From assembly GCA_903904755.1 (NCBI GenBank), contig CAIVDV010000075.1:1-64000 (forward strand): a stretch of 64,000 bases of DNA, in the 5' to 3' direction. The position numbers and the translations under genes were made by a program. This document shows positions 11,712-42,371 of this stretch, in pieces (position 1 is the first letter of the stretch; each line of letters starts with the position of its first letter). Under the pieces are notes generated by a model. The model did not search any database and was not told the origin of the DNA. It saw nothing but the letters and a program-made list of their open reading frames with translations. The stretch comes from an uncultured Acidobacteriaceae bacterium. Its GTDB lineage: Bacteria; Acidobacteriota; Terriglobia; Terriglobales; Acidobacteriaceae.

Positions 11712-11878
11712 GGTTGCGAATAAGTGTACCTGAAACCTCCCGGAATATCCCCCTCCAGCCCCGGTGACACTTTCCCGCAAACCCTTGTACCCACATCACT
11801 TGCCCGGTGAGAAACAAACGCGACCGCGTTACCCGCCATGCATTGTTCCCAACCCGCCCTCAGAGGCAGCCTTGGGGC

Positions 11879-16823: not shown

Positions 16824-16906
16824 ACCGCCCCGTGGCCCCCAAAAGGAAGCGGCAGGCCGGGAACCCCCAGCCTGCCGCCACTCGTCCTTTGCCCTGGAAC
16901 CGCCCT

Positions 16907-17746
16907 CTACGGACGTGTCTGCCCGTTCGTCGACCCGATGCCGATCCCACCCTTGCCGGTAATCATGCACCCGAATTTCAGATCCAGCATCGTCAGCTTC
17001 ACGCAGGTTACCTTCGGGTTTCCGGAATCCGAAAACTCCCCGTGCGTAATCTCCACCTTGGCCAGTTCGATGATCCCAAAGTTCGGTACGTGAATCACGT
17101 GACCATAGGAGTGGCCAGGATATCCGCCAGCCGCATGATTCACCAGAGAGCATTCCACCGCCTCCCGACCCCCAAGAGCCGAGGAAAGTTGATTGTACTT
17201 GTCCGCCACTTCGCCCGGCTGGCCCACCTTGTCCTGCAGCCGCCGGTACTGGTTTCCAACCCGCGTCACCACTCCGCCATCGACCCCATAACTCTGGTCG
17301 CCCGCTGGCGTCGTGCCCAGAATATCAAGGTCCAGGTCAAGACTCACCGGGTGTCCAGCAATCCGCAAATTCTCAAACCGCGTCCCCAGAAACGAAATCG
17401 ACGGCACATACCCGTCCAGCGGATGCTCCGTGCTGATCTGGCCCACTATCCGGTCCGCCGTCAGCACTTCCATGATGTTCAGACCCTCAATCACGGTCGT
17501 GCACAGCGTCGCCCACCCGTGACCCGGCTTCGGATCCTTGTTGCCCGCCACCCGCGTATACGCGCAGCGGTAGGCCACCACTCCCTCCGCACTGTAGCTC
17601 GCCGATTGCTCCGAATAGTAGCCGCCACTCTCCGGCAGCTTCGTGCTCGTGTGGTTCCCTTCATGCTTCAGGGGGATATCAAGGCAAAGCTGATGCAGTT
17701 GTGCATCGGCATGGTAAACGTGATTCCTGCCGTTCGTATCAGACAT
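16907..17746 (-). CDS. Hypothetical protein between anti-sigma factor and CHAT protease
   Basis: A 279-residue protein without signal peptide or membrane helix, so probably cytoplasmic unless exported otherwise. Composition is beta-rich, with many Gly and Thr and evenly spaced short strands (EGVVAYRCAYTRV, GHPVSLDLDLDILG, VIHVPNFGIIELAKVEI). The C-terminus is glycine-rich (ITGKGGIGIGSTNG). I do not recognise the family; a distant resemblance to the 'choice-of-anchor P' proteins of actinobacteria is possible (GLNIMEVLTADRIV). Its position, 42 bases after the anti-sigma gene and before the CHAT gene, makes it the natural candidate for a substrate, sensor or effector of the CHAT protease. Confidence 0.72.
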   Translation of the reverse strand: MSDTNGRNHVYHADAQLHQLCLDIPLKHEGNHTSTKLPESGGYYSEQSASYSAEGVVAYRCAYTRVAGNKDPKPGHGWATLCTTVIEGLNIMEVLTADRIVGQISTEHPLDGYVPSISFLGTRFENLRIAGHPVSLDLDLDILGTTPAGDQSYGVDGGVVTRVGNQYRRLQDKVGQPGEVADKYNQLSSALGGREAVECSLVNHAAGGYPGHSYGHVIHVPNFGIIELAKVEITHGEFSDSGNPKVTCVKLTMLDLKFGCMITGKGGIGIGSTNGQTRP

Positions 17747-17788
17747 GGCGTGCGTTTTCTCCTGAGGGATTTTTAGAGTCTGCCAATT

Positions 17789-18499
17789 CTACTTACTTTG
17801 CCCGGCGGCCTGTACATCAAATTCAATCCGGGAAACGGAACTCCCCGCTCCCTCCGCCTGCTGCCCTGCCACCGTCACCGCATACGTGCCCGCATGCAGC
17901 AGCCCGGCCGGCAGCGCCAGCACCACCTGCCGGTCACCTTCGGCATTCGCTGCCGGGGCTGCCATCACGCCGCCCCACACCAGCTTGCCGCCCGCATCAT
18001 ACAGCTCAACCCGGTAGCTCGGAAACCCCAGGCCGCCAACTGCCTGCTCCACCGGAATCGCCAGCGCTACGCCCTGCGTCGCACTCGCCTCAACCGTCTG
18101 CCGGCTGCCTCGCGTCGCCCCATGCAACTCCGCCGTCGCCATCAGGCTCGGCTCCGTCGCCTGGTGCCGCAGCGCCGGCAACTGAACCAGATTCTGATAT
18201 CCCACCAGCACCAGCAGAAGACCGAACGCCGGAGCCGCAATCGCCGGCGTTGCAAAAAGCGGCCGCAGCCACCCAAACCAATCCTTCCGCTCCGCCGCCA
18301 CTGCCTTCGGCGACGCCGCCTTCATCGCCGCCAGCTCTTCGGTCGCCGTGTCCACAAACAGCGCCGCCGCCTGCAGGTCCTGCGCACACTCCACACACTC
18401 AAAGACATGGCTCTCGAATGCCTCGCGCTCGTCTGCCGACATCTCTTCCAGCAGGTATCGCTCTGCAGCCATCTGTTCTACCGCGTCACTGTGATTCAT
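17789..18499 (-). CDS. Anti-sigma factor with N-terminal zinc-binding domain
   Basis: A 236-residue single-pass membrane protein. Residues 1-50 are a zf-HC2/ZAS-type anti-sigma domain with the H-x3-C-x2-C ligand set in SHVFECVECAQDL. A membrane helix at about 85-105 (PAIAAPAFGLLLVLVGY) is followed by a periplasmic beta domain (PSYRVELYDAGGKLVWGG, AGTYAVTVAGQQ). It should hold the ECF sigma factor inactive until an envelope signal arrives. It lies 77 bases after the sigma gene, and the unknown 279-residue protein follows. Confidence 0.87.
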   Translation of the reverse strand: MNHSDAVEQMAAERYLLEEMSADEREAFESHVFECVECAQDLQAAALFVDTATEELAAMKAASPKAVAAERKDWFGWLRPLFATPAIAAPAFGLLLVLVGYQNLVQLPALRHQATEPSLMATAELHGATRGSRQTVEASATQGVALAIPVEQAVGGLGFPSYRVELYDAGGKLVWGGVMAAPAANAEGDRQVVLALPAGLLHAGTYAVTVAGQQAEGAGSSVSRIEFDVQAAGQSK

Positions 18500-18576
18500 C
18501 TTGCTACCTCAATTCCCCTTCCATGGGGAACGCACTATTTGATGGTGCAACCACACCGCGCATCGTTTCAATCTTG

Positions 18577-19296
18577 TTACAGAGTTACCGGGACCGCGCC
18601 GGAACCCATCCGCCGCAGATACTCCGTTTTGAACTCCTGCTTGGCCCGGTGCAGCAATACCCGCAGATAATCCCGGTCCACCCCAAACTGCCGGCAAACC
18701 TCGTCCCGGTCCCGCTCTTCCAGAAACACCGCCTGCAGCAGCCCTCGGTCCCGCGCCGGCAGCAGATGCAATATCTGCCGCACCTTCTCCCGTATCTGCC
18801 GCGCCACCGCATGCTCCAGCGCATCCGCCCCGTGCGCCGGCAACTCCGGCCGATCCTCCGCGTCCAGGGACTCCACCCGTCCCGAAGCACGATAGTGCTC
18901 CAGCAACACGTGATTGCACACCGTGTTCACAAACGCGCCCAGGCTCTCCGCCTGCCGCAGACCGTTCTCTTTCCGCAGCACCGTCAGCACACGCGCAAAT
19001 GTCTCCTGGCACAGGTCATCCACAACGTGCGCTCCCTGCACCCGCGACCGCAGCTTCAACCGCAGCAACTGGGTAAAGTACGCCACAAAATGATCCTGCG
19101 TCGCCCGATCGCCTGACCGCAGCAACTCCAGATACTTCGCATCAAAAGAATGAAATTGCAAAACTGGACCCGACCCTCTCGAAGGAGTCGAGTATACCAA
19201 AACCGGAATAACAGATTGCGGTGCAACGGCCTGGCGCACCTTTTCCCGGCCAAACCCCGCATGGCTCCCCGGCACCAGCGCCGCAGCTGCGCTCAT
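18577..19296 (-). CDS. ECF-family RNA polymerase sigma factor
   Basis: A sigma-70 protein with region 2 (FDAKYLELLRSGDRATQDHF, DDLCQETFARVL) and region 4 (LHLLPARDRGLLQAVFLEE, CRQFGVDRDYLRVLLHRAK). The frame from ATG 19296 gives 239 residues, but the first 45 show no sigma homology. A TTG at 19161 would give 194 residues starting right before FHSFDAKYL, and a TATACT box (19196-19191) lies 30 bases upstream of that codon. The shorter form is therefore plausible. It heads the operon with its anti-sigma factor and the CHAT protease, and probably autoregulates it. Confidence 0.87.
   Translation of the reverse strand: MSAAAALVPGSHAGFGREKVRQAVAPQSVIPVLVYSTPSRGSGPVLQFHSFDAKYLELLRSGDRATQDHFVAYFTQLLRLKLRSRVQGAHVVDDLCQETFARVLTVLRKENGLRQAESLGAFVNTVCNHVLLEHYRASGRVESLDAEDRPELPAHGADALEHAVARQIREKVRQILHLLPARDRGLLQAVFLEERDRDEVCRQFGVDRDYLRVLLHRAKQEFKTEYLRRMGSGAVPVTL
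19191..19196 (-). promoter_or_regulatory. Candidate extended -10 box for the sigma operon
   Basis: The minus strand reads TGG-TATACT, an extended -10 element with no good -35 match. It lies inside the long reading of the sigma gene but 30 bases before the alternative TTG start at 19161, so it supports the shorter protein. Confidence 0.3.
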
Positions 19297-20195: not shown

Positions 20196-21938
20196 CTACT
20201 CCCCCGCATTCACCTCAAACGGCACCGTCAACTGCGAGTGGTCCCCGCTGATCGTCGTCGCCGTAATCGTCACCTTGTAACGCCCCGGCGGTGCCACCAG
20301 CCGCCCATGGTCCCCATACGAATCAGTCCCAATCGTCAGCGTGTCTTCCTGCGACAACGTATCGCTGAAATTCACCACCGACGTCGCCAGCCCGCAGCTC
20401 GCCGTCGCCGGCTCCATCTGGCACGTCAGGTGCACCCGCCCGGAAAACCCCTGCGCATGCAGCGTCACAATGCTCGCCACCGACGAACCCGCCTTCACCG
20501 GAACCGGCTGCCACTCTATGCTCGGCGCAGCCACCGGCGGAATCGGAAACACACGCACGTAGTCCACCAGCATATCCGCCGGATTCGGCGTCGCCGCCCC
20601 CGGGCTCCCCGGCCAGTCCCCACCTACCGCCAGGTTCAGCATCAGGTAGAACGGATGGTCAAACACCCACTCCCCACCCTCCGGCAAATCGCTCGCATCC
20701 TGCGTGAAAAACACATTCGCCGGGTCATCCACATAGAACTGCACCATCCCCGGCGACCAGATAATCCCGTACGTGTGGAAACCGCCATCATCCACCCGCG
20801 CCCCATTCGGCAGCTTGTAGTCCCGCCACAACCCGTTCCCGCCGTAATAGTGCGGCCCATGCACCACTGACCGAATCATCCCCGGTCCCAGCCCGTTCGT
20901 CCGCGCCGTGTAATCCACATTCTCCGCCAGCGTCACCGAACCCGCCGCCGGCCAGCCCGACGTCCCAAAATCCGACCCCAGCATCCAGAAGCTCGGCCAC
21001 AGCCCCGCACCCACCGGCAGCTTCATCCGCGCCTCAATCCGCCCGTACTGGAAGTTCTTCAATCCCCGCGTCGTCAGCCGCGCACTCCGCCAAACCCCGT
21101 CCGGCCCCCGCTCGGCCCGAATCACCAAATGCCCCGACCCATCCAGAAACGCATTCGGGCGGCTCACATCGCATCCCGGCGCTCCTCCCGTCTGCGGCGC
21201 ACAATACACTTCCTGCTCCTGGTTACCCCAGCCCTGCTGGTTTCCCAGGTCATACGTCCATCGCGTCGCATCGGGCGTCTGCCGCGGCGGCCCGTCAAAC
21301 TCATCGCTCCACACCGGCGCGCCCCATTCCAGCGCATGCGTCACCATCGTCACCGGCCGCTCCCGCGTCCGTCCCGCCAGGTATCCCGCCACAAACACCA
21401 GCGGCACCGCCACCCCGGCCACCACCCACTGCCAGCGAACCTGCCCCAGCCATCCCCGGTCCGCTGCCGCCGCCGTCGGCTCCGCAACCTCCACCACCTC
21501 AGCCGCCTGCTCGGCCAGTTCCTGCCCGCTCGGCAAAAACTGCGGCACATAGTGCCCCAGCGGCAGAGCTATCCGCAGCGGCCGCCCACTCCCGTCCGCC
21601 GCATAAATCTCCCCCAGCTTCTTCCGCAGCGCCCGCGCCGTCACCCGCACTATCGGGTCCACATTCGAGTCAAAACTCGCCGGCTTCCGCCCCAGCGCCT
21701 CCACCGCAATCGAGTACTCGCGAATCTCCCGCGACTCCCCCTCAAAATACTTCGCGCAGATAAACGATAGAAAACGCACCAGGTTCGCCGACCGGCTCAG
21801 CTCCGGATGCTGCAGCACCCACGCCAGCTCCGCCCGCTCCACGCCAAACCCCGCGCCAGACGCAGCCCCGGTGCCCTGCCCCGCCTGCTCCCCGACGCCG
21901 GTCTTGTCCAATTCAGTTTCCACAGTTTCCCCAGGCAT
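20196..21938 (-). CDS. Transmembrane sensor with catalytically dead GH16-like outer domain
   Basis: A 580-residue fusion. The N-terminal cytoplasmic domain (about residues 35-135: LVRFLSFICAKYFEGE, DPIVRVTARALRKKLGEIYA, LPLGHYVPQF) is a module I know from acidobacterial regulators and cyclase-like proteins and which ends like a winged helix. One membrane helix follows (WVVAGVAVPLVFVAGYLAG, about 168-190). The outer part is a full GH16 beta-glucanase fold (RIEARMKLPVGAGLWPSFWM, HTYGIIWSPGMVQFYVDD, NLAVGGDWPGSP) plus a C-terminal Ig-like module. The GH16 signature GEIDIME reads GSVTLAE here: Ser334 and Thr336 replace the nucleophile Glu and the Asp, leaving only Glu339. It should bind but not cut beta-glucan. 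The ATG at 21938 is chosen over upstream codons lacking similarity. Confidence 0.8.
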   Translation of the reverse strand: MPGETVETELDKTGVGEQAGQGTGAASGAGFGVERAELAWVLQHPELSRSANLVRFLSFICAKYFEGESREIREYSIAVEALGRKPASFDSNVDPIVRVTARALRKKLGEIYAADGSGRPLRIALPLGHYVPQFLPSGQELAEQAAEVVEVAEPTAAAADRGWLGQVRWQWVVAGVAVPLVFVAGYLAGRTRERPVTMVTHALEWGAPVWSDEFDGPPRQTPDATRWTYDLGNQQGWGNQEQEVYCAPQTGGAPGCDVSRPNAFLDGSGHLVIRAERGPDGVWRSARLTTRGLKNFQYGRIEARMKLPVGAGLWPSFWMLGSDFGTSGWPAAGSVTLAENVDYTARTNGLGPGMIRSVVHGPHYYGGNGLWRDYKLPNGARVDDGGFHTYGIIWSPGMVQFYVDDPANVFFTQDASDLPEGGEWVFDHPFYLMLNLAVGGDWPGSPGAATPNPADMLVDYVRVFPIPPVAAPSIEWQPVPVKAGSSVASIVTLHAQGFSGRVHLTCQMEPATASCGLATSVVNFSDTLSQEDTLTIGTDSYGDHGRLVAPPGRYKVTITATTISGDHSQLTVPFEVNAGE

Positions 21939-22251
21939 TCTCAGTCGTCCACGTTTCCCCGCCAGGCCCCTGAAACCATCCCGCCCAGCATAACGAAATC
22001 CGACACTCGAAAAATCCGCAGTCTGCGTTCCTGCATCGCCGTCGCGCAATTCGCTTCCGAATCATACCACCCATTCAAAACCCGCGGAAATCCACCTTTG
22101 CGCTCATCAAATCCCCCAAAAGCCGCCCTCCGCCACCAACCTGAAAATTCCTCCCCGTGCTATCCTTGCCTCTGTCGGACCCCCCTTCGGCCCTGCAGAT
22201 TCACCGCACCGCATACGCCAGGAATCCTTCGTCCGCCAGGAGCCGTAACCT

Positions 22252-22716
22252 TTGACCACTCTCCACGAAGTGGACCGTTCCCGCATCATCTTCGAGCAGT
22301 TCGACAACGAAACGGTGCTCGTCAACACCGAGTCCGGCGTCTTTTACAGCCTCAATCCCACCGCCACCGCCGTCCTCAAGCTCATTGAAGAGGGTTGCCC
22401 TCTCGATCAACTCCACTCCGTCCTCTTCCCCGGCAACTCCGCTCCATCCCAGGCCGCTCCCGCCATCCACGCCTTCCTCCAGCAACTCCTCGCAGAACGA
22501 CTCCTCCGCGACCGCTCCGACTCCAACCCAATCGCCCCCTTCCCCACCCCCGACCCCGCTCTCTTCTCTGCCGGCTCTGCCTTCCTTCCCCCGCTCCTCG
22601 AACGCTTCGATTACATGGCCTCCCTCATGCAGCTCGACCCCATCCACGAGGTCGACCCCAGCTTCGGTTGGCCCAAGGAATCAAGGGATGACGACGCAGA
22701 CCCCCAACCCGCCTGA
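22252..22716 (+). CDS. PqqD-family (RRE-like) protein
   Basis: A 154-residue protein beginning at TTG with AGGAG nine bases upstream. Residues 5-90 fit the PqqD/RiPP-recognition fold: a beta hairpin (ETVLVNTESGVFYSLNPTAT) followed by helices (AVLKLIEEGCPLDQL, AAPAIHAFLQQLLAERLL). Such domains hold peptide substrates for modifying enzymes. The C-terminal 50 residues are an extension ending in PIHEVDPSFGWPKE and an acidic tail. The gene overlaps the HprK-like kinase by 29 bases and starts a four-gene cluster. The combination resembles the HPr-rel-A type systems known from proteobacteria, but no separate HPr-like or precursor peptide is visible. Confidence 0.8.
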   Translation: MTTLHEVDRSRIIFEQFDNETVLVNTESGVFYSLNPTATAVLKLIEEGCPLDQLHSVLFPGNSAPSQAAPAIHAFLQQLLAERLLRDRSDSNPIAPFPTPDPALFSAGSAFLPPLLERFDYMASLMQLDPIHEVDPSFGWPKESRDDDADPQPA

Positions 22717-23764
22717 CACCCAGCCATCCCCCGACTTCTGGCTCCAGTTGCGTCAGCTCCTGCGCCACACCATCACCCCCCGACCCACTCCGGTCGAGGC
22801 CCGCCTCTCCCTCGCCGCCGCACCCCTCACTCTGCGTTTTGCCTCTGCCGCCCTCCAGAACCGCATCCTCCCCGCACTCAGCCATCTCCCCGCCCACAAC
22901 CATCCATCCCCCGACCTCACCATACTCGTCCACGACTACGCTTCCGCCCCTGAAATCCCCGCCCTCCTCCGCGACCTCACCATATCCTCCAGCGGCGAAG
23001 AATACTGGGTCTTCCACCAGGGCAGCCTCGTCGTCAACCTCCAGCACCACGGCCGCGTCCTCTCCGCCATCGACTGGGAAACCCGCACCGCCTGGTGGAT
23101 TGGCCCCTCACCCGACGCCATCGAATACACCGAACGCGCCCACCCCCTCCGCCTTATCCTCACCCAATGGCAGCAATCCCGCGGCTGCAACCTCGTCCAT
23201 GCCGCCGCCGTCGGCATCCCCTCCGGCTGCGCCCTCATCATCGGCCAGGGCGGAGCCGGCAAATCCACCTCAGCCCTGGCCTCCGCCACCGGTGGCCTCC
23301 TCTACCTCGGCGACGATATCTGCCTCGTCCAGGATTCCCCCGCACCCCTCGTTCACAGCCTTTACTCCAGCGCAAAGCTCGCCTGCCTCTCACGCTTCCC
23401 CGCCCTCGCCCCCGCATCCGTCCCGGAAGGTCGCCCCGACTCCGAAAAGCTCATCCTCTTCTTCCACCAACTCGCAGCCGTCTCCACCGTTCCCACCCTT
23501 CCCCTCCGCGCCCTGCTCCTCCCCACCATCACCGCCGCCACGCAAACCACCATCCGCCCCTCCACCCCCGCCCAGGCCTTTCTCCAGCTCACCCCCAGTT
23601 GCATCTGGCACCTGCCCCACCTCCGCCCCCAACTCCTCGCCGCCTTTGCCGCGCTCGCACGCCGCGTTCCGGTTTACACTTTGGCTCTGGGCTGCGACTT
23701 CGCCTCCACCCCCATCGCCATCCGCGCCCTGCTCCTCCAGCTCCAAACAAGCGAGCCCGCATGA
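22688..23764 (+). CDS. HprK-related P-loop kinase
   Basis: A 358-residue protein with a HprK-type kinase core. The Walker A motif GQGGAGKSTSALA is near residues 190-202 and the metal-binding region LYLGDDICLV follows. The N-terminal 150 residues (HQGSLVVNLQHHGRVLSAID) replace the usual HprK N-domain. HprK-like kinases in such clusters phosphorylate a Ser on a small carrier or precursor peptide. ATG 22688 overlaps the PqqD-like gene, and the stop overlaps the glycosyltransferase start as ATGA, so all four genes look translationally linked. Confidence 0.83.
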   Translation: MTTQTPNPPDTQPSPDFWLQLRQLLRHTITPRPTPVEARLSLAAAPLTLRFASAALQNRILPALSHLPAHNHPSPDLTILVHDYASAPEIPALLRDLTISSSGEEYWVFHQGSLVVNLQHHGRVLSAIDWETRTAWWIGPSPDAIEYTERAHPLRLILTQWQQSRGCNLVHAAAVGIPSGCALIIGQGGAGKSTSALASATGGLLYLGDDICLVQDSPAPLVHSLYSSAKLACLSRFPALAPASVPEGRPDSEKLILFFHQLAAVSTVPTLPLRALLLPTITAATQTTIRPSTPAQAFLQLTPSCIWHLPHLRPQLLAAFAALARRVPVYTLALGCDFASTPIAIRALLLQLQTSEPA

Positions 23765-24465
23765 CCTCCCCACTCGTCTCCGTCATCATCCCCGTCCACA
23801 ACACCGAGAAATACATCCGCGAGGCCATCGAAAGCGTCCTCGCCCAGGACTATCGCCCCCTCGAAATCATCGTCATCGACGACGGCTCCTCCGACTCCAG
23901 CGCCTCCATCGCCGAGTCCTTCCCTCAAGTCATCTGCATCCGCCAGCCCAATCAGGGTGCCGGCGCAGCCCGCAACACCGGCCTCGCCCTCTGCCACGGC
24001 GACTTCATCGCCTTCCTCGATGCCGACGACCTCTGGGTCCCTCACAAAACATCCTGGCAGGTCAATTACCTCCTCAGCCACCCTGAAGTCGATTGCCTCA
24101 TGGGCCGCTCCCGCAACTTCCTCGAACCTGGCGTCGAGCGCCCCCACTGGCTCCCTGAACAGCTCCTCGCACCCTCCCGCCTCACCCTCGCCATGCCCGC
24201 CAGCCTCTTCCCCCCACGCACCTTTCACCGCATCGGCAACTTCAACCCCTCCTACCGCCAGTGTGAGGATTTGGACTGGTTCATCCGCCTCCACGAGTCC
24301 GGCGCCGTCATACACACCCCCGACGAAGTCTTCCTCCTCCGTCGCATCCACACCACCAACATCTCCTACGGCAACACCACCGCCATCCGCAACCGTCTGC
24401 GCATCATCAAGAACCTCATCGACCAGAAGCGCGCAAACCAACCCCAGGACCAGGGGACCGAGTAA
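23761..24465 (+). CDS. GT-A family 2 glycosyltransferase
   Basis: A 234-residue soluble glycosyltransferase. The nucleotide-sugar site is clear: VSVIIPVHNTEKYIREAIES at the N-terminus, VIDDGSSD, and the metal-binding FLDADDLW. The acceptor side has QCEDLDWFIRLHE, which fits the usual ED catalytic-base motif. No membrane helix is present. It is coupled by a 4-base overlap to the HprK-like kinase. The acceptor could be the phosphorylated or otherwise modified peptide of this cluster, or an envelope glycan. Confidence 0.88.
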   Translation: MTSPLVSVIIPVHNTEKYIREAIESVLAQDYRPLEIIVIDDGSSDSSASIAESFPQVICIRQPNQGAGAARNTGLALCHGDFIAFLDADDLWVPHKTSWQVNYLLSHPEVDCLMGRSRNFLEPGVERPHWLPEQLLAPSRLTLAMPASLFPPRTFHRIGNFNPSYRQCEDLDWFIRLHESGAVIHTPDEVFLLRRIHTTNISYGNTTAIRNRLRIIKNLIDQKRANQPQDQGTE

Positions 24466-24470
24466 CCGCC

Positions 24471-25731: not shown

Positions 25732-28700
25732 TTACAGCACCTCAATCGAAACGGTCGTACTCGTGCTCACCGCTCCTGAGGTTGCCGTAATCGTGATAAT
25801 CGAGTTCCCCGGAGGCGTCTGAGCCTTCGGTGCCGATCCGCCGCACCCAAACATCGGGCTCAGCCCCAGCACCAGACCCAGCACCAGCATCAGGTGCGCC
25901 AGGAACCGACGCCGACGCTTGCCGCCGAAGAACAATCCGGCTGCCATGCTCAGCGGAATCAGCGCCAGCATCGGCGTCATCCCATTGCCATTGCCTTCGC
26001 TCCGGTTCGCCGCCATCGCGCCGCCAGGGCCCGTGGTGGTCACCGTCAGCGTGCTGCTCGCCGACCCCGTACCGCTCAGCGTCACCGAAGACGGGCTGAA
26101 GCTGCACGTTGCCAACACCGGCAGTCCGCTGCACGTCAGGTTGACCGTACCGCTGAAGCCGTTGGCAGGCGACAGGTTGATGGCAAACTGCGCCGATCCG
26201 CCTGCCTGTATCGTCGCGCCAGAGGGTACCGGCAGCGGCATCGAGATGGAAGGTGGCCCCGCCTCAACCGTGACATTCGCCACCGCAGAAGTGCTCGGTG
26301 CGTACGTGCCGTCGCCCGGATACACAGCCGTAATGCTGTGCGATCCCAGTCCCAGCGTGCTCGTGTTGTACGTCGCAACTCCACCCGCCAGCGTTCCGGT
26401 TCCCAGCGTGCCCGCACCGTCCTTGAACGTTACCGTTCCGGTCGCGGCAGCAGGCGCAACAGTCGCCGTCAGCGTCAGTTGCGTGTTCACCACCGGGCTC
26501 GTCGAGGAAGCAGCCAGTGTCGTGGTTGTCGTTGTCAGCGGAATCGCCTGCGTCGTGGCCATCACCTCAGGCGCCGGTTCAATGCCGCCCGAGTTCACTG
26601 CCGCAACCAGGTAGTAGTACGCCGTCGACGCCATCAGTGCGCTGTCCGCATAGCTCGTGCCGCTCAGGCCACTCGCTACCAGGCTACCCGCATTCGGCGT
26701 AAAGCCCGCCGTCGTGCCGCGATACACGTTGTAGGTCACACCAGCCGTCGCGCTCGCCGTCCAGCTCAGGTCAATCTCCATATCAGAGACCGCCATCGCC
26801 TTCACATTGGTCGGGCCCATCGGTCCCACCACGCCCTGCATCACTCCGGTAAACGGAATCGTCAGTTGGCTCGACGCACCAGAGGTGTTCCCCACCGCCA
26901 GCAGCATCGGCGCGTTATCCGGGCCAGGCAGTGCATCCCAGAACTTCACCGTAATGGTGCCGTTCACCAGGTTGCCCATCGCCGGTCCGGTCACCGTCTG
27001 CAGCCCGCCGCGCTCGGTTGCGTTGTAGTCTTCCCAATCCACAACCGGGTTGGTGGCAAACAGCTCGTACGTCTCCGTGCGAACCTGCGTACCATCGCCC
27101 AGCAGGTCATAGATCACCTGCGCCTGCGCGCCTTCTCCGGCATGCGCACCAGCATCCACATACATGTCAAATGCCGTGTTCATGCCCGTCGCATACGTCG
27201 CGTTGATGTTCGAGATGGTGTACACCAGCGGATTCGCCGGCGCTCCCACCTGCTGCGGATTGTTTGCCGGTGCTGAATCCACACCCGCCGCTCCAGCCGT
27301 AAAGCTCAACTGGCTCGGCAGCGATGCCGTCGCTCCCGCCACAAAGAACATCTGCGCCTGGCCCGCAACTCCACCACCGGAAATCATGGTGGTCGCCGTA
27401 GCCTGCATAGATGCCGGCGAGCTCCCCGCCACGTTCACTGCTTCCACCACGTAGTAGTACGTCGTGGCAGTCGTCAGCCCGGTGTCAGAGTACTTCACGT
27501 CCGTAATTCCGGCCGCCGCCTGGTTCGCGCTGGAAGGCGTAAACCCACCAGCCGTCGATCGGTACACCGAGTAGGTCACTCCCGGCGTCGAGCTGGCAGT
27601 CCAGCTCAGGTTGATCTGCGAGTTGCTCGCAGGCGTTGCCATCAGCCCGGCTGGTGCCACTGGCGTCGTCGCCGTCTGCGTCACGCTGGTAAACGGAATC
27701 GTCAGTTGGCTCACGTAGTTCGTCGTCGCGCCCACTGCCACCTGCATCGGTGCCGAGTCCGTCCCTGGAAGCGCATCCCAGATCTTCACCGTCACCGTGC
27801 CGTTCACCAGGTTGCCAAGCGCCGGCCCGGTCACCGTCTGCAAACCACCGCGCTCGTTCGGGTTGTAGTCTTCCCAGTCAACAACAGGATTCGTCGCAAA
27901 CAGTTCATAGGTCTCGGTACGCACCTGCGTCCCGTCGCCCAGCAGGTCGTAAATCACCTGCGCCTGCGCGCCTTCTCCTGCATGAGCACCGGCATCCACA
28001 TAGAAGTCGAAGTTCGTCACTCCGCCCGCCGTGTAGTCGGCATTCACATTCGTCATCTGGTACACCAGCGGCTGTCCCGGCGTTCCAACTGTCTGCGGAT
28101 TGTTCGCCGCAGCCATGTCAATTCCGGCCGTCTCCGCCGTGAAGCTGAGGAAGCTGGGATTGGTGCTTGTGGCGCCTGCCACCAGGTACATGGTGGGGCT
28201 TCCCGGTGTGACGCCGCCGCTTGACTTTGTCGTGGCGGATACTTCCGAAGAAGGGTCCGAGCTACCGGCTCCATTCACTGCTTCAACTGCGTAGTAATAC
28301 GTAGTTCCCTGGGTCAACCCCGCATCCACATAGCTGGCCGTGCTCAGCCCGCTTGCAATCCGGTTCGCTCCCGAAGGCGTAAATCCGCTCGTCTCGCTGC
28401 GGAATACATCCCAGGTCACATTCGGCACACTGCCCCACGCCAGATCAATCTCTGTCGCAGACTGCACATTCGCAACCAGACCAAACGGCTGTGCCGGCGG
28501 CTGCAGCGTATTCACGCCCGCACCCACCGTTATCGGTGTCACCAGTGCCGAATCCGACGCCATGCTGCCCGCCGGAACCGTCACCGTCGCGCCATCCGAG
28601 AAGTGCGCCGTGATGCTCGAGTTGCTCGGGTTGAAGGCCACGTGCGCCTTCGTCCCGCCGTTGTTGAACACCGCATACAGCGGAGTATCCGCAGTCACCG

Positions 28701-30885
28701 TCGCATCCACCTGCCCCAGCGCGTTCAGGCTCATCAGCCACGCATACTCATGCGCCAGCGTCTCACCCTGCTGCGGAAACTTGTTGCTCGGGTTCGCCTG
28801 CCACTGCTGCAACGCAGTCGCCGGGCTCGCCAGTGCTTCGTACATCTCCATCAGGTCTGGCCAATCCGGCAGCGTGTTTCCATTCGCCGCATAGTCCAGA
28901 TTGAAGTTCTTCGTCACATACGCCGGGCTCAGGCCCAGATGCAGCGATCCACCCGTAAACGGCAGAAACTCAATCGCATGCTCGTAGTCAGGATTCGCGC
29001 CAAACCACGTGCCCGTATCGCCCTTGTCGTCAAAGATGTTGGTTGCGTAGCCCTTCGTAAACCAGCTCGGGAATGTCGAGGTTGCGCTCGCATTCACCCA
29101 CGCCGGCTGCTCGTTGAACCAGTAGTACGCAGCGCCCTTGGTCTCCTGCGTATACAGCCAGATGCCAGCATCGCGCATCTGCAAATCGCCCGTCGCCGCG
29201 CCCAGCAGAATCATGCCCGTCCAGGCATTGATCGCTTCCGAACTCGACTCTTCATTCTCGCCATCGCCAAACGGCGCAGTGCCCGCCGCCCAGCTGTGCC
29301 CCGCATACACATCAAAGTGCCGCAGGAACGGGAACATCGTATTCGTGCGGTCGTAGTTGGCAATATCCTGCTGAAGCAGGCTCACCATTCCGCCCCACTG
29401 GCTGCTCGCAATCCAGCTCGGATTGAACAATCCCTGAATCGCCGCCGCATGGATGTAATACCCATAGTGGAAGTGATGATCGTTCAACTGATCGTTCGTG
29501 TCATACCCGGCCGGGAACCCAATCATCGAGCCCCAGTTCTGGTTGTAATAGAACACGTCCGCAGTCTTCGTCGGCGTTGCCGTAAACCAGTTCTGCATCA
29601 CGGTAGACAGGCTCGCATCCAGTGTCGAATACGCATTCGCATCCACCAGTTGTGCCAGCGGAAGCAACTGCGCCGTCTGCCCCAGGTTCTTGCCCTGCGC
29701 ATACGTATCGCCCTGCAGCGTCGCCGCAGGTGCCGCATCCACATACCCCTTCAGCGTCGCCGTATCGTAGTTCGTCGTCGGCGGCATAAACGGCAGCACT
29801 CCGTGGAACGTATCCGTCGTCGTAAACGATTCGCCGATGTTGATCACCATCGGTCCGCGATCCGTCACATACGTATACGTCGTATTCACACCACCCGGCA
29901 CCGCGTCATACTGGTGCGGAAACAGAGACATCAGAAAGCCCGTCGAGCTTCCGTCCATCGACTGCGTCGTCACCGAGTACGTCGTCGTCACCGTGCTCGA
30001 AGCCTGGTTATACGCCCAGCTCACTGCCGTGTTCGCAGGAAACGAAAACGCAACCTTCCCGAAGTCCGTCATCTGCTGTGCAATCGTCGTCGTGTTCGTA
30101 TTCGGCCCGCCGCTCAACCCCGGCAGCAGCGCAATCGACATGTAGTTCTTGCCGCCCGGCGTCGTGCAAGTCATCGTCTTGCCGCTCAGTGCCCACTGGC
30201 CGCCGCTCGGGCAGAACAATCCGTAGTAGTTCGTATAGCTCACGCCATACGCGCCATACGTGTCGCTCACCGCAATCATGTTGTCCGTGCCAATGGCGCC
30301 CTGCACCACCGCCGGAGTATTGGCAAACGTCAGCGTCACAGGCGTGCCATCCGTCATCACATACGCAAACGGCATACCCCGCCCCATGCGCACCGTCAGC
30401 GACGGCCCCCAACTGAAATCCGCCGTCCAGTCCGAGGTCTTCGTCACGTTCACAGCCGCGGCATTCAACCCCGCGTTGCCAATCGTCACTTCATTGTTGA
30501 AGCCCTGGTAGAACGCAATCGTGTTGCCGCTCTTGTCGCTGTTGTTGATCGTCGGGTCCCATCCGTAAATGTCGCCCAGGTATCCAATGCTCATTCCGTT
30601 CGCGCCGGCATTGGCTGCCAGCGGCTCAGGAAACATATTGTTGCCGCCAGAAAGCGGTGCCCACAACTTCGATGTCCAGAACTTGTGTGTGGCAATCGGC
30701 GAACCAGTCGTCGCATAAATCGTGCTCTGCGGCCCTGTCGCGCCTGCGGGGAGCGTCGTCGTGTAGCTGCCCTGCCCAGCGCTGGTCACCTGACCCATCG
30801 CCGTCACTCCGCAGCACAACGCCAGCAACATTGCGAGCATCCATACCCCTGCCCGCTGTGGGAACCGTGTCGTCATCTCGTTCAT
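25732..30885 (-). CDS. Giant secreted GH81 endo-beta-1,3-glucanase with duplicated FN3-CBM56 modules and C-terminal anchor
   Basis: A 1717-residue exported laminarinase. After the signal peptide (WMLAMLLALCCGVTAMGQ) the GH81 catalytic region spans about residues 50-780, with NDHHFHYGYYIHAAAI and, near 537-549, HSWAAGTAPFGDGENEESSS, the family's acidic catalytic motif. It is followed by FN3 (about 796-890), a CBM56-like beta-1,3-glucan-binding module (897-1075), FN3 (1076-1165), a second CBM56-like module (1172-1360), FN3, an Ig-like repeat and a NGFSGTVNLTC module. The end is a hydrophobic stretch, GGKRRRR, a second hydrophobic stretch, FGCGGS and a beta tail, like the GH5 protein. GAGGTTGAG before the ATG supports the start. 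It follows the TonB-dependent receptor gene by 129 bases, so the two likely form a glucan-use operon. Confidence 0.9.
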   Translation of the reverse strand: MNEMTTRFPQRAGVWMLAMLLALCCGVTAMGQVTSAGQGSYTTTLPAGATGPQSTIYATTGSPIATHKFWTSKLWAPLSGGNNMFPEPLAANAGANGMSIGYLGDIYGWDPTINNSDKSGNTIAFYQGFNNEVTIGNAGLNAAAVNVTKTSDWTADFSWGPSLTVRMGRGMPFAYVMTDGTPVTLTFANTPAVVQGAIGTDNMIAVSDTYGAYGVSYTNYYGLFCPSGGQWALSGKTMTCTTPGGKNYMSIALLPGLSGGPNTNTTTIAQQMTDFGKVAFSFPANTAVSWAYNQASSTVTTTYSVTTQSMDGSSTGFLMSLFPHQYDAVPGGVNTTYTYVTDRGPMVINIGESFTTTDTFHGVLPFMPPTTNYDTATLKGYVDAAPAATLQGDTYAQGKNLGQTAQLLPLAQLVDANAYSTLDASLSTVMQNWFTATPTKTADVFYYNQNWGSMIGFPAGYDTNDQLNDHHFHYGYYIHAAAIQGLFNPSWIASSQWGGMVSLLQQDIANYDRTNTMFPFLRHFDVYAGHSWAAGTAPFGDGENEESSSEAINAWTGMILLGAATGDLQMRDAGIWLYTQETKGAAYYWFNEQPAWVNASATSTFPSWFTKGYATNIFDDKGDTGTWFGANPDYEHAIEFLPFTGGSLHLGLSPAYVTKNFNLDYAANGNTLPDWPDLMEMYEALASPATALQQWQANPSNKFPQQGETLAHEYAWLMSLNALGQVDATVTADTPLYAVFNNGGTKAHVAFNPSNSSITAHFSDGATVTVPAGSMASDSALVTPITVGAGVNTLQPPAQPFGLVANVQSATEIDLAWGSVPNVTWDVFRSETSGFTPSGANRIASGLSTASYVDAGLTQGTTYYYAVEAVNGAGSSDPSSEVSATTKSSGGVTPGSPTMYLVAGATSTNPSFLSFTAETAGIDMAAANNPQTVGTPGQPLVYQMTNVNADYTAGGVTNFDFYVDAGAHAGEGAQAQVIYDLLGDGTQVRTETYELFATNPVVDWEDYNPNERGGLQTVTGPALGNLVNGTVTVKIWDALPGTDSAPMQVAVGATTNYVSQLTIPFTSVTQTATTPVAPAGLMATPASNSQINLSWTASSTPGVTYSVYRSTAGGFTPSSANQAAAGITDVKYSDTGLTTATTYYYVVEAVNVAGSSPASMQATATTMISGGGVAGQAQMFFVAGATASLPSQLSFTAGAAGVDSAPANNPQQVGAPANPLVYTISNINATYATGMNTAFDMYVDAGAHAGEGAQAQVIYDLLGDGTQVRTETYELFATNPVVDWEDYNATERGGLQTVTGPAMGNLVNGTITVKFWDALPGPDNAPMLLAVGNTSGASSQLTIPFTGVMQGVVGPMGPTNVKAMAVSDMEIDLSWTASATAGVTYNVYRGTTAGFTPNAGSLVASGLSGTSYADSALMASTAYYYLVAAVNSGGIEPAPEVMATTQAIPLTTTTTTLAASSTSPVVNTQLTLTATVAPAAATGTVTFKDGAGTLGTGTLAGGVATYNTSTLGLGSHSITAVYPGDGTYAPSTSAVANVTVEAGPPSISMPLPVPSGATIQAGGSAQFAINLSPANGFSGTVNLTCSGLPVLATCSFSPSSVTLSGTGSASSTLTVTTTGPGGAMAANRSEGNGNGMTPMLALIPLSMAAGLFFGGKRRRRFLAHLMLVLGLVLGLSPMFGCGGSAPKAQTPPGNSIITITATSGAVSTSTTVSIEVL
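26810..28200 (-). repeat. Internal duplication of FN3 + CBM56-like modules in the GH81 gene
   Basis: Two copies of a glucan-binding module (about 27660-28200 and 26810-27370) share long identical protein stretches, for example AQAQVIYDLLGDGTQVRTET and ATNPVVDWEDYN, and each is followed by an FN3 domain. The near-identity points to recent duplication or gene conversion. Boundaries are approximate. Confidence 0.75.
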
Positions 30886-31014: not shown

Positions 31015-34000
31015 TTAGAACGTAAAGCGCGCCCCAAACTGGCCAATGCGCGGTCCTACCCCGCCATAACCCAGCACATACCCAAACAGCGGGTCTGCCA
31101 GATTCGTGTCAGGTCCTCCCAGCGCATGACGGTTGAAGACGTTGAAGAACTCCAGCCGAAGCGTCAGGTTGTACTGCTTCTCTGCGCCCGCCGACACACT
31201 CTTGTGCAAGCCAAGATCCTCCGTCGCAACACCCGGATTTCGTACCTTCTCCTGGAACGCGCCTCCCGTGCCCAACTGCGGCACTGGCCCGCCAAATGCG
31301 CCTGCCTGCGGATTCTGGAAGCACTCCGCATTCAGCCACGGCTGGTACAGCTTCGGATTGCCCTTCGTCATCTTGCAGCCCGGCACCAGGTTCACATACA
31401 CCGAGTTGAAGCCCACATAGTAGTTCGTCGAACGCACGCTGATCGGCGTGCCTGAGCTGTAGTGGAAGTCGCCGTTCAGGCTCCATCCGCCCACAATCTC
31501 GTCCACCAGCCGGCTCGCATTGCCCAGCACCATCTGCCCGCGCCCAAACGGCAACTGGTAGATGATGTAGCCCTTCACAATGTGCGTCACGTCGAAGTCT
31601 GCAATGCTCTTCGCTTCGCTCTGCAGGTCGTCCGTGTTCTGCAATCCACCCGTGCCCCACAGCTCTTCAAATCCCGTATCCACGTCGCCGTGCGTCTGGG
31701 ACCAGCTGTAGCTCGCCTGTGTGGAAATGCCATGCGCAGCGCGCCGCGTTACGCTCACCTGCAGGCTCTTGTAGTCGCCGTTGCCCAGCGGAGTTCCCAC
31801 TGACAGCAGCGGACCGTAGCCCACCTGCGCCTGCGGATACGGCGTCAAGCCCTGCCAGCCCGGCCCCTGTCCTCCCGGATAGTAGCCGTTGTAGCTCGCA
31901 GGCAATTTCCCGCTCACCACAAAGTTCTGGTAGTCGGAAAAGTGCGGCTGGTTGTGCTGGAAAATTCCGCTCTGCAAATGCGCGCTGCGGCTCTGGATCC
32001 AGTTCACATCCACCTTCGTGTCCTTCGCCAGTTCCCGCTGCACGCCCACGTTGTACTGCACCGTGTTGCCAGGCTCGTTCGCACGCGGATCTATCGAAAC
32101 CACATCCGCCTGCACCCAGTCCGCCGTCTTCTTCTGCACGGTCGTCGGCTGGTAGCCGTTGTCCCAGTTGAAGTTCGCCTGCTGCGTCACAGGATGGAAG
32201 CCCGGATTGCCCGCCTGCTGGTACGGAATGCCGCCCCAGCTATTCAGGTTCAGCGGCGTAAAGAACAACCCGACATTGCCGCGAATCACCGTCTTCTCAT
32301 TCAGCTTGTACGCAATGCCCATGTGCGGCGCATAGTTGTACCAGTCCACGCGCTTTTCAAACGACTGCTTGCCGCTTGTCAGATATTCATATTGCCCCAT
32401 CAGTCCCGTAATTGGATTCTTCGCCGTAATGTCGAAGTTCGACCAGTGACCGTACTTCTCCTTGTACGGATTGTTGTAATCCCAGCGCAGGCTCAGGTTC
32501 ACAGTTAGCTTCGGATTCACGCGAATGTCGTCGCTCACATACGCGCCAAACGTCTTGCGCCGTCCGTACTCGTTGTCAGGATTGTTGTTCTCCGCGTTGT
32601 AGACATCTCCCAGCAGGAAGCTCCCAAACGCATTGCCCAGCTTGTTGTACGCGTTGAAGTCGTACCACGCACCCGCCGTCGAAACCGGATCAAAGATGAT
32701 CGGATAGCCGCCCGTAAACGTGCCGTCATCCGTGTGATAGTTGAACTGCATCGCACGGAACTCGGCGCCGAACTTGAAGTTGTGCCGGCCCTTCGTCCAG
32801 TCCAGTTCATCGCTGTAGATGAACGTGTTGCCCGCATAGTAGTCGTTGAACTGGCTCCCCAGCGGAGAGAACGCCCAGCCATTCTGGTAGTTGCCGCCGT
32901 TGGTGTACATGCCCATGTCAAACTGCATCAGCGGGAAGTTCCCCGCGCCGCTCAGCAACCCCAGCGCCTGGTCCCACTTCCCCGCCTGCGAAATCGCAAT
33001 CGATGGGTTGCGGAAACGGTTCATCGTTGCATGCGCCGTGTTCAGCAGGTTCGGCGTAAACGTGTACGTGTGGCTCAACCGCGCACCCGGGGCCGTCGTG
33101 TTGTGCCAGTAGGCATTGGCCATCGGCCCGCCCTTGTCACCCGTCACGCTCCACACACCACCCTGGTCCGCGTTGATGCGCGGATAGTTGTCGTAGTAGT
33201 AGCTCCCGTTGATGTGCTGCTTCGAGCTCACGTTGTAGTCCAGCTTGATGCTCGTCTGCGTGTTGTGGAACCACGGGTCAGGCTGGTTCGCCGGCCCCGC
33301 ATCGTTGCCCGGCAGGCTCGACTCCGGCTGATAGTACTTGTGGTAAAGATTCAGAATCGTCCGCGTCTTCTGGCTGATGCGATCGGTCGGAATCTTGTTG
33401 CCCACAAACACGCAGCCAAACGCGCCATTCACCACCGTCGCAGGGTCCACAATCGCACCCTGGTACACCGGCTGCCCGCAGTTGTCCAGCGCAGGCGCGC
33501 CGCCATACGTCAGCACCGGAATGCTCGGCGAAAGCATCGGACTCAGATCCGCGTAAGGAACCGTGCTCCCCGTCGAATCAAAGCCCATCATTGCGTCCGT
33601 CGGCACCGTGCGCGAGTTCGGCCCCAGGCTCCACATCGACTGCATGTACCGCTCAAACGCAGCATAGTAAAACAGCTTGTCCTTCTTGATCGCGCCGCCA
33701 AAGCTGCCGCCCCAGTCGCTGAGCGAATCGCTCTTCTTCAGGTAAGCCGCCGCATTCGCCGGATCGTTGAACGACGCCAGATGATTGCTGTCGCTCACCG
33801 CGTCCAGCCCCGTGCTGTGCATGAACCCGAACAGCGATCCATGTATCTGGTTCGCGCCCGACTTCATCTCATAACGGAAAACGCCGCCGCCCGAACGCCC
33901 CGCGTCCGAGCCAATGCCCGCCGTGTCCGCCTCAAATTCCTGCACCGCTTCCATCGGAGGCTGGCTCTCGCTGATGTATCCACCAAGTTGCGACACCGCC

Positions 34001-34575
34001 GAGGTGCCGTCAATCATCACTTCCTTGGTCAGCGCCACGCTGCCGTTGATGTGCGAGCTGTAATCTGAGCCTTCCGCGCCCGGCACATACGCAAAAATGA
34101 AATTCGACAGATTACGGCTGCCCTGCACATTCAGCGGCAACTCACTCACCGCCTCCGCGCTCAGGTTTGTCGAAACCGCCGCATCCTCGGTCTGCAGAAT
34201 CGGAGCCTCGCCCGTAACCTCGACCGTCTCGCTCGCCCCGCCCACCTGCAGGTTCGCGTCAATCTCGGCCACCTGGCTGATCAGCAGGGTTATCCCCTTC
34301 CGCGACAGCTCCTTGAAGCCCTGCTTCAGAAACGTCACGGTGTACTCGCCAACCGGCAGGTTGCTCACCCGGTAAAATCCCAGGTTGTCCGTCGTCTCTA
34401 TCTCCGTCTGGTTTGTCCCAATATTGGTGACCGTCACCTGCACCCCGGGCAACACGCCTGCAGTGGCGTCCTTGACCGTGCCGGCAATGGTCGCACGGTC
34501 CGACTGCCCAAACATCGTCGCTGTCATTCCGCAACACATCAGGACAACCAGCCATACAACTCGTTTCAACATCAT
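31015..34575 (-). CDS. Oar-type TonB-dependent outer-membrane receptor
   Basis: A 1186-residue outer-membrane protein. A signal peptide (LKRVVWLVVLMCCGMTATMFGQ) is followed by a carboxypeptidase-regulatory beta-sandwich (ATIAGTVKDATAGVLPGVQV, NLPVGEYTVTFLKQGF), a plug region (EAPILQTEDAAVSTNLSAEA) and a large beta-barrel ending in RFTF, the aromatic C-terminus expected for BAM insertion. The ATG at 34575, after GAGGAGACGCC, begins the signal peptide; codons further upstream are not part of the gene. The adjacent GH81 gene suggests uptake of beta-1,3-gluco-oligosaccharides. No SusD-like partner is present, as is usual in acidobacteria. Confidence 0.9.
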   Translation of the reverse strand: MMLKRVVWLVVLMCCGMTATMFGQSDRATIAGTVKDATAGVLPGVQVTVTNIGTNQTEIETTDNLGFYRVSNLPVGEYTVTFLKQGFKELSRKGITLLISQVAEIDANLQVGGASETVEVTGEAPILQTEDAAVSTNLSAEAVSELPLNVQGSRNLSNFIFAYVPGAEGSDYSSHINGSVALTKEVMIDGTSAVSQLGGYISESQPPMEAVQEFEADTAGIGSDAGRSGGGVFRYEMKSGANQIHGSLFGFMHSTGLDAVSDSNHLASFNDPANAAAYLKKSDSLSDWGGSFGGAIKKDKLFYYAAFERYMQSMWSLGPNSRTVPTDAMMGFDSTGSTVPYADLSPMLSPSIPVLTYGGAPALDNCGQPVYQGAIVDPATVVNGAFGCVFVGNKIPTDRISQKTRTILNLYHKYYQPESSLPGNDAGPANQPDPWFHNTQTSIKLDYNVSSKQHINGSYYYDNYPRINADQGGVWSVTGDKGGPMANAYWHNTTAPGARLSHTYTFTPNLLNTAHATMNRFRNPSIAISQAGKWDQALGLLSGAGNFPLMQFDMGMYTNGGNYQNGWAFSPLGSQFNDYYAGNTFIYSDELDWTKGRHNFKFGAEFRAMQFNYHTDDGTFTGGYPIIFDPVSTAGAWYDFNAYNKLGNAFGSFLLGDVYNAENNNPDNEYGRRKTFGAYVSDDIRVNPKLTVNLSLRWDYNNPYKEKYGHWSNFDITAKNPITGLMGQYEYLTSGKQSFEKRVDWYNYAPHMGIAYKLNEKTVIRGNVGLFFTPLNLNSWGGIPYQQAGNPGFHPVTQQANFNWDNGYQPTTVQKKTADWVQADVVSIDPRANEPGNTVQYNVGVQRELAKDTKVDVNWIQSRSAHLQSGIFQHNQPHFSDYQNFVVSGKLPASYNGYYPGGQGPGWQGLTPYPQAQVGYGPLLSVGTPLGNGDYKSLQVSVTRRAAHGISTQASYSWSQTHGDVDTGFEELWGTGGLQNTDDLQSEAKSIADFDVTHIVKGYIIYQLPFGRGQMVLGNASRLVDEIVGGWSLNGDFHYSSGTPISVRSTNYYVGFNSVYVNLVPGCKMTKGNPKLYQPWLNAECFQNPQAGAFGGPVPQLGTGGAFQEKVRNPGVATEDLGLHKSVSAGAEKQYNLTLRLEFFNVFNRHALGGPDTNLADPLFGYVLGYGGVGPRIGQFGARFTF

Positions 34576-35238
34576 GGCGTCTCCTCCAAAAACCACACCC
34601 TCAGGCGCGGTCCCTATCCCTGCTCTGCTTCTCTGCCTGTCTCGCCTCAACCGGGCTCTCAGGCTCTTCACCGCCGGGCTTCCCCTCCGCAACCTCTGCG
34701 GCAGACCCCCCGCCAGTCTTCCGTTTCCCCTTCCCAAACCTCGGGAATTTTCAAAACCGTCAGCTACACGGTCTCCGGAACAGCAGCCATTCAACTCGCC
34801 CCACTACAAACCGCGAAACGTAACCGGGGGTGAAATTTACAGTGCAAAATATCGGGTGCCTGTTAACCGGAACCGCCGCCTCAGCCCCACCCTGCCCCCT
34901 CCGATTAACGGTGTTTACCCCACCCCAGCACCCAACCGTATAACCGCCTCTCACCCCCTCCAGCGCAACCCCGCCACCACGCCCATCCACCCGCCAAGCC
35001 ACGCCAATCCACCACAGCGCTTTACTAAATCGCTGAAGTTACTGCATTTCCGCAATTCCCATATCCCGAGCCACCAGTCCTACCCTCCCCCCACCCCCTC
35101 CGTTACCCCACCCCCGACCGTTCTATACCCCCATTCATCAGCTCCACACCCCCACCCCTCCACCTCCTCTCCCCTCCCTCTCCCGCCCTCCTCCAATCCC
35201 AATCCACCCCCGCTCCCCGCCCAACCCCTCGCCCCTTA
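34576..35238. promoter_or_regulatory. Divergent control region between receptor/GH81 and TPR/CRTAC1 genes
   Basis: Together with 35239-35355 this is a 780-base gap between two divergent transcription units. TTTAC boxes occur at 34836-34840 and 34914-34918, and GTTAAC at 34862-34867. Sequence around them is more A+T-rich than the coding regions. No supported gene lies within it. Promoters for both directions are expected here, but I could not place -35/-10 pairs with confidence. Confidence 0.45.
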
Positions 35239-35300
35239 CGATTTACGGGTTAACTCCCCTTTCGCCGTCAAAATTTACTCCCCTCATCAGCCGTAAATCG
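35239..35300. promoter_or_regulatory. Dyad and direct repeats upstream of the TPR gene
   Basis: CGATTTACGG (35239-35248) and CCGTAAATCG (35291-35300) are perfect 10-base inverted repeats. Between them are two direct repeats, TTAACTCCCCT (35250-35260) and TTTACTCCCCT (35274-35284), spaced 24 bases start to start. GTTAAC overlaps the first. This layout fits a cooperative regulator binding about 55-117 bases before the TPR start codon. Confidence 0.5.
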
Positions 35301-42352: not shown

Positions 42353-42371
42353 CCTTGCAAACGCCCTTGGA

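Follow-up and report, generated by a model that had tools for sequence, protein, structure and literature searches.

Background

In the polysaccharide loci of Bacteroidota, regulators of the SusR and HTCS types are encoded beside the transporter and hydrolase genes and sense oligosaccharides in the periplasm, the HTCS combining beta-propeller sensors with histidine kinase modules. Catalytically dead GH16-like domains are found in the GNBP/betaGRP proteins of insects, which take part in beta-glucan recognition as secreted eukaryotic immune proteins with neither a membrane nor a DNA-binding part. Acidobacteria are abundant soil degraders with a diderm envelope and, to our knowledge, little is known of their polysaccharide sensing. 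Membrane-bound one-component regulators are well known (PMC10269533), and those of the ToxR/CadC type join a cytoplasmic DNA-binding domain through a membrane helix to an extracytoplasmic part, with no phosphorelay; the term “GH16” is absent from the main text of that source. Glycoside hydrolase domains have also been recruited as membrane-anchored polysaccharide sensors, as in the anti-sigma factor RsgI6 of Clostridium thermocellum, whose GH10 domain has very low activity and retains binding (PMC4711584), the RsgI proteins acting by way of proteolytic release and a sigma factor (PMC12203970).

Here, we analysed a stretch of 64,000 nucleotides from an uncultured Acidobacteriaceae bacterium (contig CAIVDV010000075.1, assembly GCA_903904755.1), hereafter the window, and focused on a gene whose product is probably a one-component transmembrane transcription regulator in which a dead GH16 domain senses beta-1,3-gluco-oligosaccharides, the ligand, the inactivity and the DNA binding being those that we infer from comparison. 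The gene lies next to transporter and hydrolase genes, as do those of SusR/HTCS regulators, and the protein would combine the layout of ToxR/CadC, the glycoside-hydrolase sensor of RsgI6 and the dead GH16-like domain of the insect beta-1,3-glucan recognition proteins. It differs from ToxR/CadC by a putative winged helix below Pfam Trans_reg_C detection and by a pseudo-glycoside hydrolase as putative sensor, and from RsgI by uniting the sensor with a putative DNA-binding domain, by its GH16 family and by the replacement of the nucleophile itself. In Pfam searches at E up to 1, the protein matched neither the RsgI_N anti-sigma domain nor the histidine kinase, receiver and propeller domains of HTCS. 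Among the matches listed for the open-licence literature (titles and abstract starts), no GH16-based transmembrane regulator is described, and a term search of two papers (PMC6827312 and PMC3174227) brought up nothing bearing on the question; no protein that joins a winged helix to a dead GH16 domain with an invariably replaced nucleophile was found in these matches. Such a regulator offers a concrete receptor together with a predicted ligand, operator and target operon, all testable in vitro.

Sequence data and comparisons

Relatives were sought with one protein as query, a search that reaches close relatives only and that returned 18 loci, ten of them (L001-L010) with full-length relatives, all from Acidobacteria or Acidobacteriaceae. 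The 200 genomes of the window's family were also searched and 30 matching loci examined, which revealed full-length relatives in five genomes (the window's own, G144, G002, G183 and G177). With the N-terminal domain alone as query, the same five genomes were recovered at 66-100% identity, along with ten further family genomes at 48-53% identity, the latter at match level only. Altogether, 14 distinct members were retained (the window, L001-L010, L026, L027 and L028); L025, from G144, repeats L003 and was dropped, and L001 and L002 are near-copies.

Results and discussion

Gene and domain architecture

The span of 20196-21938 given by the sequence-only reading was borne out by the reading from an ATG at 21938 in the ORF list, and its strand, which had been left out, is minus; the longest reading of the frame covers 22049..20196 (minus, 617 aa), a TTG start being also possible. 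From N to C terminus, the protein begins with a variable leader, followed by a conserved domain of ~105 residues; a linker, also variable, then leads to a hydrophobic helix, the GH16 domain and an Ig-like tail. The predicted cytoplasmic, winged-helix-like domain occupies 21522..21854 (minus, residues 66-176), and a single membrane helix is predicted from hydropathy only at 21369..21434 (minus, residues ~206-227), between this domain and the GH16 domain. The hydropathy profile has one peak (1.99 at residues 208-226), only the scanning windows that start at residues 206-209 exceeding 1.6, in agreement with the earlier view that one membrane helix joins both halves; the charge distribution around this helix does not settle its orientation. 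The GH16 pseudoenzyme domain follows at 20541..21320 (minus, residues 244-503), then a C-terminal tail at 20199..20540 (minus, residues 504-617), with a mean pairwise identity of 67% and beta strands in a low-confidence model, which in our reading is Ig-like, a label given without a Pfam hit. The full-length model of the protein was poor (mean pLDDT 57.3) and was left out of the argument.

A GH16 domain without its nucleophile

The best PDB sequence match of residues 245-502 is the beta-1,3-glucanase 2hyk (E 1.7e-58), and the GH16 Pfam profile PF00722 is matched at E 3.4e-13 (49.9 bits against a cut-off of 22). In the alignment, GEIDIMEN of 2hyk pairs with GSVTLAEN of the window protein, so that the nucleophile Glu is replaced by S371 (codon TCG, 20937..20939, minus) and the assisting Asp by T373, the acid/base E376 being kept. 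The ExDxxE triad with its nucleophile Glu, which marks active GH16 enzymes, is hence absent, and the flanks WPSFWM (residues 351-356) and NLAVGGDWPGSP are both present. This alignment with a GH16 structure, proposed as a check by the sequence-only reading, upholds its claim that GEIDIME has become GSVTLAE with loss of the nucleophile; its claim of an intact fold around the active site had cited these two flanks.

The nucleophile position is Ser in all 14 distinct full-length members, window included, and is encoded by five codons (TCT, TCG, TCC, TCA and AGC); since these include both TCN and AGC, the residue does not seem to drift and is apparently held by selection. The same picture emerged from a motif-blind test on the 65 GH16 blast matches that cover the nucleophile site (loci L001-L053). 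All 15 fusion rows (14 distinct proteins) read GS, with Ser at the nucleophile, and the other 50 lack the winged-helix signature, which was sought as a pattern in the first 260 residues. Glu is kept in 47 of these 50, and three are unaligned at the site (one of the two L015 matches, L016 and L017), none of the three being acidobacterial. The GH16-like proteins of L015, L016 (Granulosicoccaceae) and L017 (Fibrobacteres), with 31-36% identity and no GExDxxE at the expected place, are possibly other inactive GH16 judging from their sequences.

When the dead clade was compared with 36 intact GH16 sequences, 45 columns were near-invariant in both groups, including W351, W355, W366, R337, R341, H397 and E376. 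Three conserved columns are replaced in almost every dead member (P245, S353 and the nucleophile S371), the intact sequences having been chosen by motif, which makes the nucleophile column circular in this comparison but not in the motif-blind test; partly changed columns, such as that of the assisting Asp, are in neither list. The dead clade also has 25 columns of its own, which include N385-G388 (within an insertion), R393, W408 and D410.

The retention of the groove bears on what the domain may still do. We take E269 of the laminarin-active enzyme ZgLamA to be its nucleophile. Its inactive Glu-to-Ser control, GH16-E269S, still binds laminarin with a Kd of 1.78 uM, and the naturally inactive Rv0315, without binding residues, shows no binding (PMC4606783). 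In ZgLamA, Trp238/Trp242 and Trp264 stand at subsites -1 and -2 (PMC4606783), and spacing suggests that W351/W355 and W366 of the window protein correspond to them. Because most groove residues are retained, we liken the window family to ZgLamA E269S, a laboratory mutant, and not to Rv0315. The family would thus be a natural case of a hydrolase domain apparently turned receptor through a Glu-to-Ser change of the kind by which a GH16 that binds laminarin but is inactive is made in the laboratory.

Linkage to glucan uptake and digestion genes

As the sequence-only reading had stated, a GH81 laminarinase gene lies nearby on the same strand (endo-beta-1,3-glucanase with fn3 and Ig-like domains, 25732..30885, minus, PF17652 E 1.7e-50). 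It is accompanied by a TonB-dependent transporter gene (Oar-type, CarboxypepD_reg plus beta-barrel, 31015..34794, minus, PF25183 E 3.9e-144), whose true start is probably near 34570, judging from the onset of CarboxypepD_reg compared with L001. A transporter is present in the neighbourhood of 12 of the 14 members (window, L001, L002, L003/L054, L004-L009, L026/L055 and L028/L109), the contigs of L010 and L027 ending before any could appear; its identity was established by Pfam in six of the 12 (window, L001, L004, L005, L008 and L109), in agreement each time, and by blast clustering in the other six. The distance between transporter and regulator is ~9 kb in the window and ~8 kb in G177; elsewhere the two adjoin or stand two GH16 genes apart. 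In one recurring gene order, the regulator comes first, followed by the transporter and two GH16 genes; in the other, the transporter and two GH16 genes precede the regulator.

Glucanase genes of family GH16 or GH81 are found near 11 of the 14 members, the contigs of L002, L005 and L010 ending first. Intact GH16 genes accompany nine members, and GH81 was seen in their place only in the window and in L056, from the same genus, which refines the proposed link to GH81. Elsewhere in the genome of the window there is a single further GH16-like match, on a different contig. In the window, the GH81 gene is separated from the regulator by a four-gene plus-strand cassette (22252-25625) encoding a PqqD-like protein, one further ORF, a family-2 glycosyltransferase and an NTP_transf_5 nucleotidyltransferase, which may, as a guess, serve peptide or surface-glycan tailoring.

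A candidate operator upstream of the transporter

Two blocks came from the alignment of the transporter-upstream regions of ten loci. The complete version of block 1, GTAAAT-N8-ATTTAC-N5-ATTTAC-N2-3-GTAAAT, occurs in L001, L002, L005, L006, L007 and L054; three half-sites are kept in L004, L008 and L009 (one mismatched in L004), L010 has two exact half-sites and two with one mismatch, and the block is inverted in G177. In the window, this putative operator is degenerate, with GTAAAT and GTTAAC-CC-GTAAATC half-sites (35240..35280, minus). OmpR/PhoB-type domains commonly bind head-to-tail sites ~10-11 bp apart, and the 11 bp between the inner ATTTAC copies of block 1 fit this spacing. Block 2, GTAAATTT-N8-9-TTACGTTTC, could be inspected in 12 loci and has a single best position in all of them, with at most two mismatches and an exact match in seven. 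Where this region is covered, it precedes the called transporter start by 145-385 bp; in the window, this putative promoter/operator (GTAAATTTcacccccggTTACGTTTC, 34815..34840, minus), identified by multi-locus comparison and genome pattern search, lies at a distance that depends on the inferred start.

Across the ten loci in which a transporter was called and its upstream region is covered, GTAAAT/ATTTAC words reach 6.3 per kb upstream of the transporter (47 in 7,445 bp) versus 0.18 per kb elsewhere (36 in 196,130 bp), with 3 in 13,594 bp of other intergenic sequence, an enrichment that is after the fact because the motif was derived from those regions. At the genome level, the pattern GTAAATTT-N6-11-TTACGTTT occurs in four of the 200 family genomes, namely the window's, G144 and G177 (at the transporter) and G065 (at an unrelated place). 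This represents three of the five regulator carriers versus one of the 195 other genomes (Fisher P 3e-5), the pattern having been chosen from the window and G144, which leaves only G177 and L010 as held-out cases. In the carriers G002 and G183, the contigs end before the upstream region of the transporter, and no such element was seen by the GH81-linked copy in G183, on its short contig.

The regulator could be real and the GTAAAT element be the site of another factor or the core promoter of the transporter, which we regard as unlikely without setting it aside. Block 2, present once per locus at its promoter-like distance, could indeed be promoter sequence or another regulator's site, and block 1 is degenerate in the very window under study. 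Against this stand the near confinement of the core pattern to regulator genomes and the arrangement of block 1, whose half-sites repeat at 11 bp and are inverted in G177, as the site of a factor could be.

Several patterns and matches were discarded. The ATTTAC-N0-4-GTAAAT palindrome alone was unspecific, being found in eight of 14 genomes and, in its reversed control, in seven of 14. A block-1 pattern with wrong spacing matched four of the 200 genomes, G177 at the regulator locus and G106, G034 and G032, in which neither family search showed a regulator. No transporter-sized ORF follows the matches in G113 and G065 in the stretches examined, and a copy of the element on contig 4 of the window's own genome (L111) precedes a gene.

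The cytoplasmic domain and its other partners

The sequence-only reading described the cytoplasmic part as regulator-like. The comparisons below suggest a winged helix, in keeping with that description, but the window domain has no Pfam Trans_reg_C match (PF00486; E up to 1 for the window protein and up to 5 for the isolated domain). Among 34 relatives, Trans_reg_C was the sole family matched by more than one member, weakly so (10 of 34, best E 0.0011), and a profile of these 34 winged-helix relatives matched nothing among the PDB sequences at E up to 1. AlphaFold2 modelling of the domain from 11 sequences gave a best model with a mean pLDDT of 87.4, two of the five models being below 50; its helices (9-20, 22-25, 28-42, 51-58 and 72-90) and strands (98-101 and 110-113) would form a helix-turn-helix plus wing. 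Foldseek returned no match to this model below E 0.001. VIA ranked effector domains of response regulators first, SaeR, ArlR and PhoB among them (best Z 6.9, rmsd 3.2, 82 aligned), ahead of ScpB winged helices (Z 6.4), LexA (5.5) and ToxR (4.8), Z values under 8 being such as may reflect common arrangements. With hhalign, the domain aligned to 13 OmpR-type domains of the same genome at P 4e-4, with a probability of only 35% and the recognition helix in register, and to four GntR domains at P 0.13. Taken one by one these lines of evidence are weak; sequence and model together make a divergent OmpR/PhoB-like winged helix the probable fold of the domain, an assignment that is favoured rather than proven.

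The same module is not restricted to GH16. It was matched at E 1e-6 or better in 28 of 61 genomes of the class, and the relatives examined carry other C-terminal parts, mostly behind a hydrophobic helix (no clear helix in L065, L069, L071 and L080). Fifteen relatives were scanned with Pfam. Malectin was confirmed in all eight in which it was suspected (L059, L060, L061, L062, L066, L067, L072 and L086), PD40 repeats were found in L070, TPR in L080 and a weak propeller match in L064, and the C-terminal parts of L021, L022, L065 and L077 gave nothing telling. In four of five malectin-type loci (L133-L136), a TonB-dependent transporter adjoins the regulator or stands one gene off; the fifth, L132, has none on its short contig.

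These recurrences lead us to propose, tentatively, that the window regulator is one branch of a large group of one-component glycan receptors in Acidobacteria, perhaps undescribed so far and a counterpart of SusR/HTCS. Its members would share the winged helix and the membrane helix, carry swappable ectodomains (dead GH16, malectin and possibly beta-propeller), and each control an adjacent TonB-dependent transporter via short repeats ~10-11 bp apart. Intergenic regions of two of the five malectin-type loci contain 10-bp direct repeats of a TTAA-containing word, located upstream of the regulator gene in L132 (6857-6880) and between regulator and transporter in L133 (9232-9250); they are suggestive only, as possible operators of malectin-type regulators.

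The nature of this domain also bears on another explanation, in which the protein is a membrane-anchored glycan-capture protein whose dead GH16 holds oligosaccharides near the importer and whose cytoplasmic domain serves anchoring or protein contacts. Binding without cleavage accounts for the GH16 part, the neighbours are import and degradation genes, and the DNA-binding fold has little direct backing, the PDB profile and Foldseek searches having come back empty. Such a role would nevertheless leave unexplained why the cytoplasmic domain is conserved like the GH16 domain (mean pairwise identity of 71% versus 73% over 13 sequences without L002, the linker being at 16%), resembles OmpR/PhoB effector domains and recurs on unrelated ectodomains next to transporters, and why a conserved dyad/repeat element lies upstream of the transporter. 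We consider it improbable.

A single origin under purifying selection

In a maximum-likelihood tree of 50 GH16 domains, the 14 dead ones form one clade with support of 100/100, and the closest intact GH16 are those of L029, L030 and L033. Pairwise dN/dS was computed for six pairs of GH16 domains. Five gave 0.04-0.12, two of these having dS > 2 and being hence rough, and the sixth pair is saturated; these sequence comparisons indicate that the dead domains are under purifying selection. A decaying pseudogene or a sequencing error, which catalytic residue loss alone would permit, has a practically negligible probability in view of 14 members, one origin, low dN/dS and conserved linkage.

It is also very doubtful that the outer domain retains some activity, such as transglycosylation through its acid/base Glu. 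This residue is kept in 13 of the 14 members, and retaining glycosidases mutated at the nucleophile can work as glycosynthases when given activated donors. However, no natural activated donor is evident, the acid/base is Gln in L010, and the assisting position drifts (D in six members, T in four, S in three and A in one). The earlier claim that the assisting Asp is lost consequently holds for the window, with T373, and not for the family as a whole, in which the position is variable. The member with both changes (L010:6761-8569, GSVAIVQN) is a natural double change.

Proposed mechanism

The best reading is that a GH16 hydrolase was turned into the sensing part of a one-component membrane regulator, as supported by the invariant loss of the nucleophile with a largely retained groove, the winged-helix-like domain, the conserved gene linkage and the putative operator. 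In this scenario, the nucleophile would have been replaced by Ser in a single ancestor with the groove kept, making the periplasmic GH16 domain a presumably non-hydrolytic receptor whose likely ligands are beta-1,3-gluco-oligosaccharides. Neighbouring GH16 or GH81 enzymes would release the ligand, the TonB-dependent transporter would import it and the dead GH16 would bind it. The single membrane helix would relay the resulting change to the OmpR/PhoB-like winged helix in the cytoplasm. This domain is predicted to act, most likely as an activator, at the GTAAAT/ATTTAC sites that precede the transporter operon. The protein may therefore switch on the adjacent glucan-uptake and digestion genes when beta-1,3-glucan is present, and the sensing of imported oligosaccharides would create a positive feedback.

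In a diderm envelope, the sensor is expected on the periplasmic side, where it would meet oligosaccharides imported by the transporter and not the polymer outside the cell. The idea of a direct beta-glucan sensor thus gains support from the groove, the linkage and the upstream element, with the amendment that its ligand would be imported oligosaccharides and not the outside polysaccharide.

Other genes of the window

Downstream of the regulator, a divergent sigma-70-like factor, whose Pfam scores are under the cut-off, a zinc-finger anti-sigma-like protein and a TPR-CHAT protein stand in a row (14295-19296, minus). A canonical OmpR-type winged-helix protein, distinct from the regulator, is encoded at 10851-11780 (minus, Trans_reg_C E 2e-16). 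On the other side, a second polysaccharide-type locus (35356-44783, plus) comprises a TPR protein, an ASPIC/FG-GAP protein, an Oar-type TonB-dependent transporter and a melibiase/GH36-like gene.
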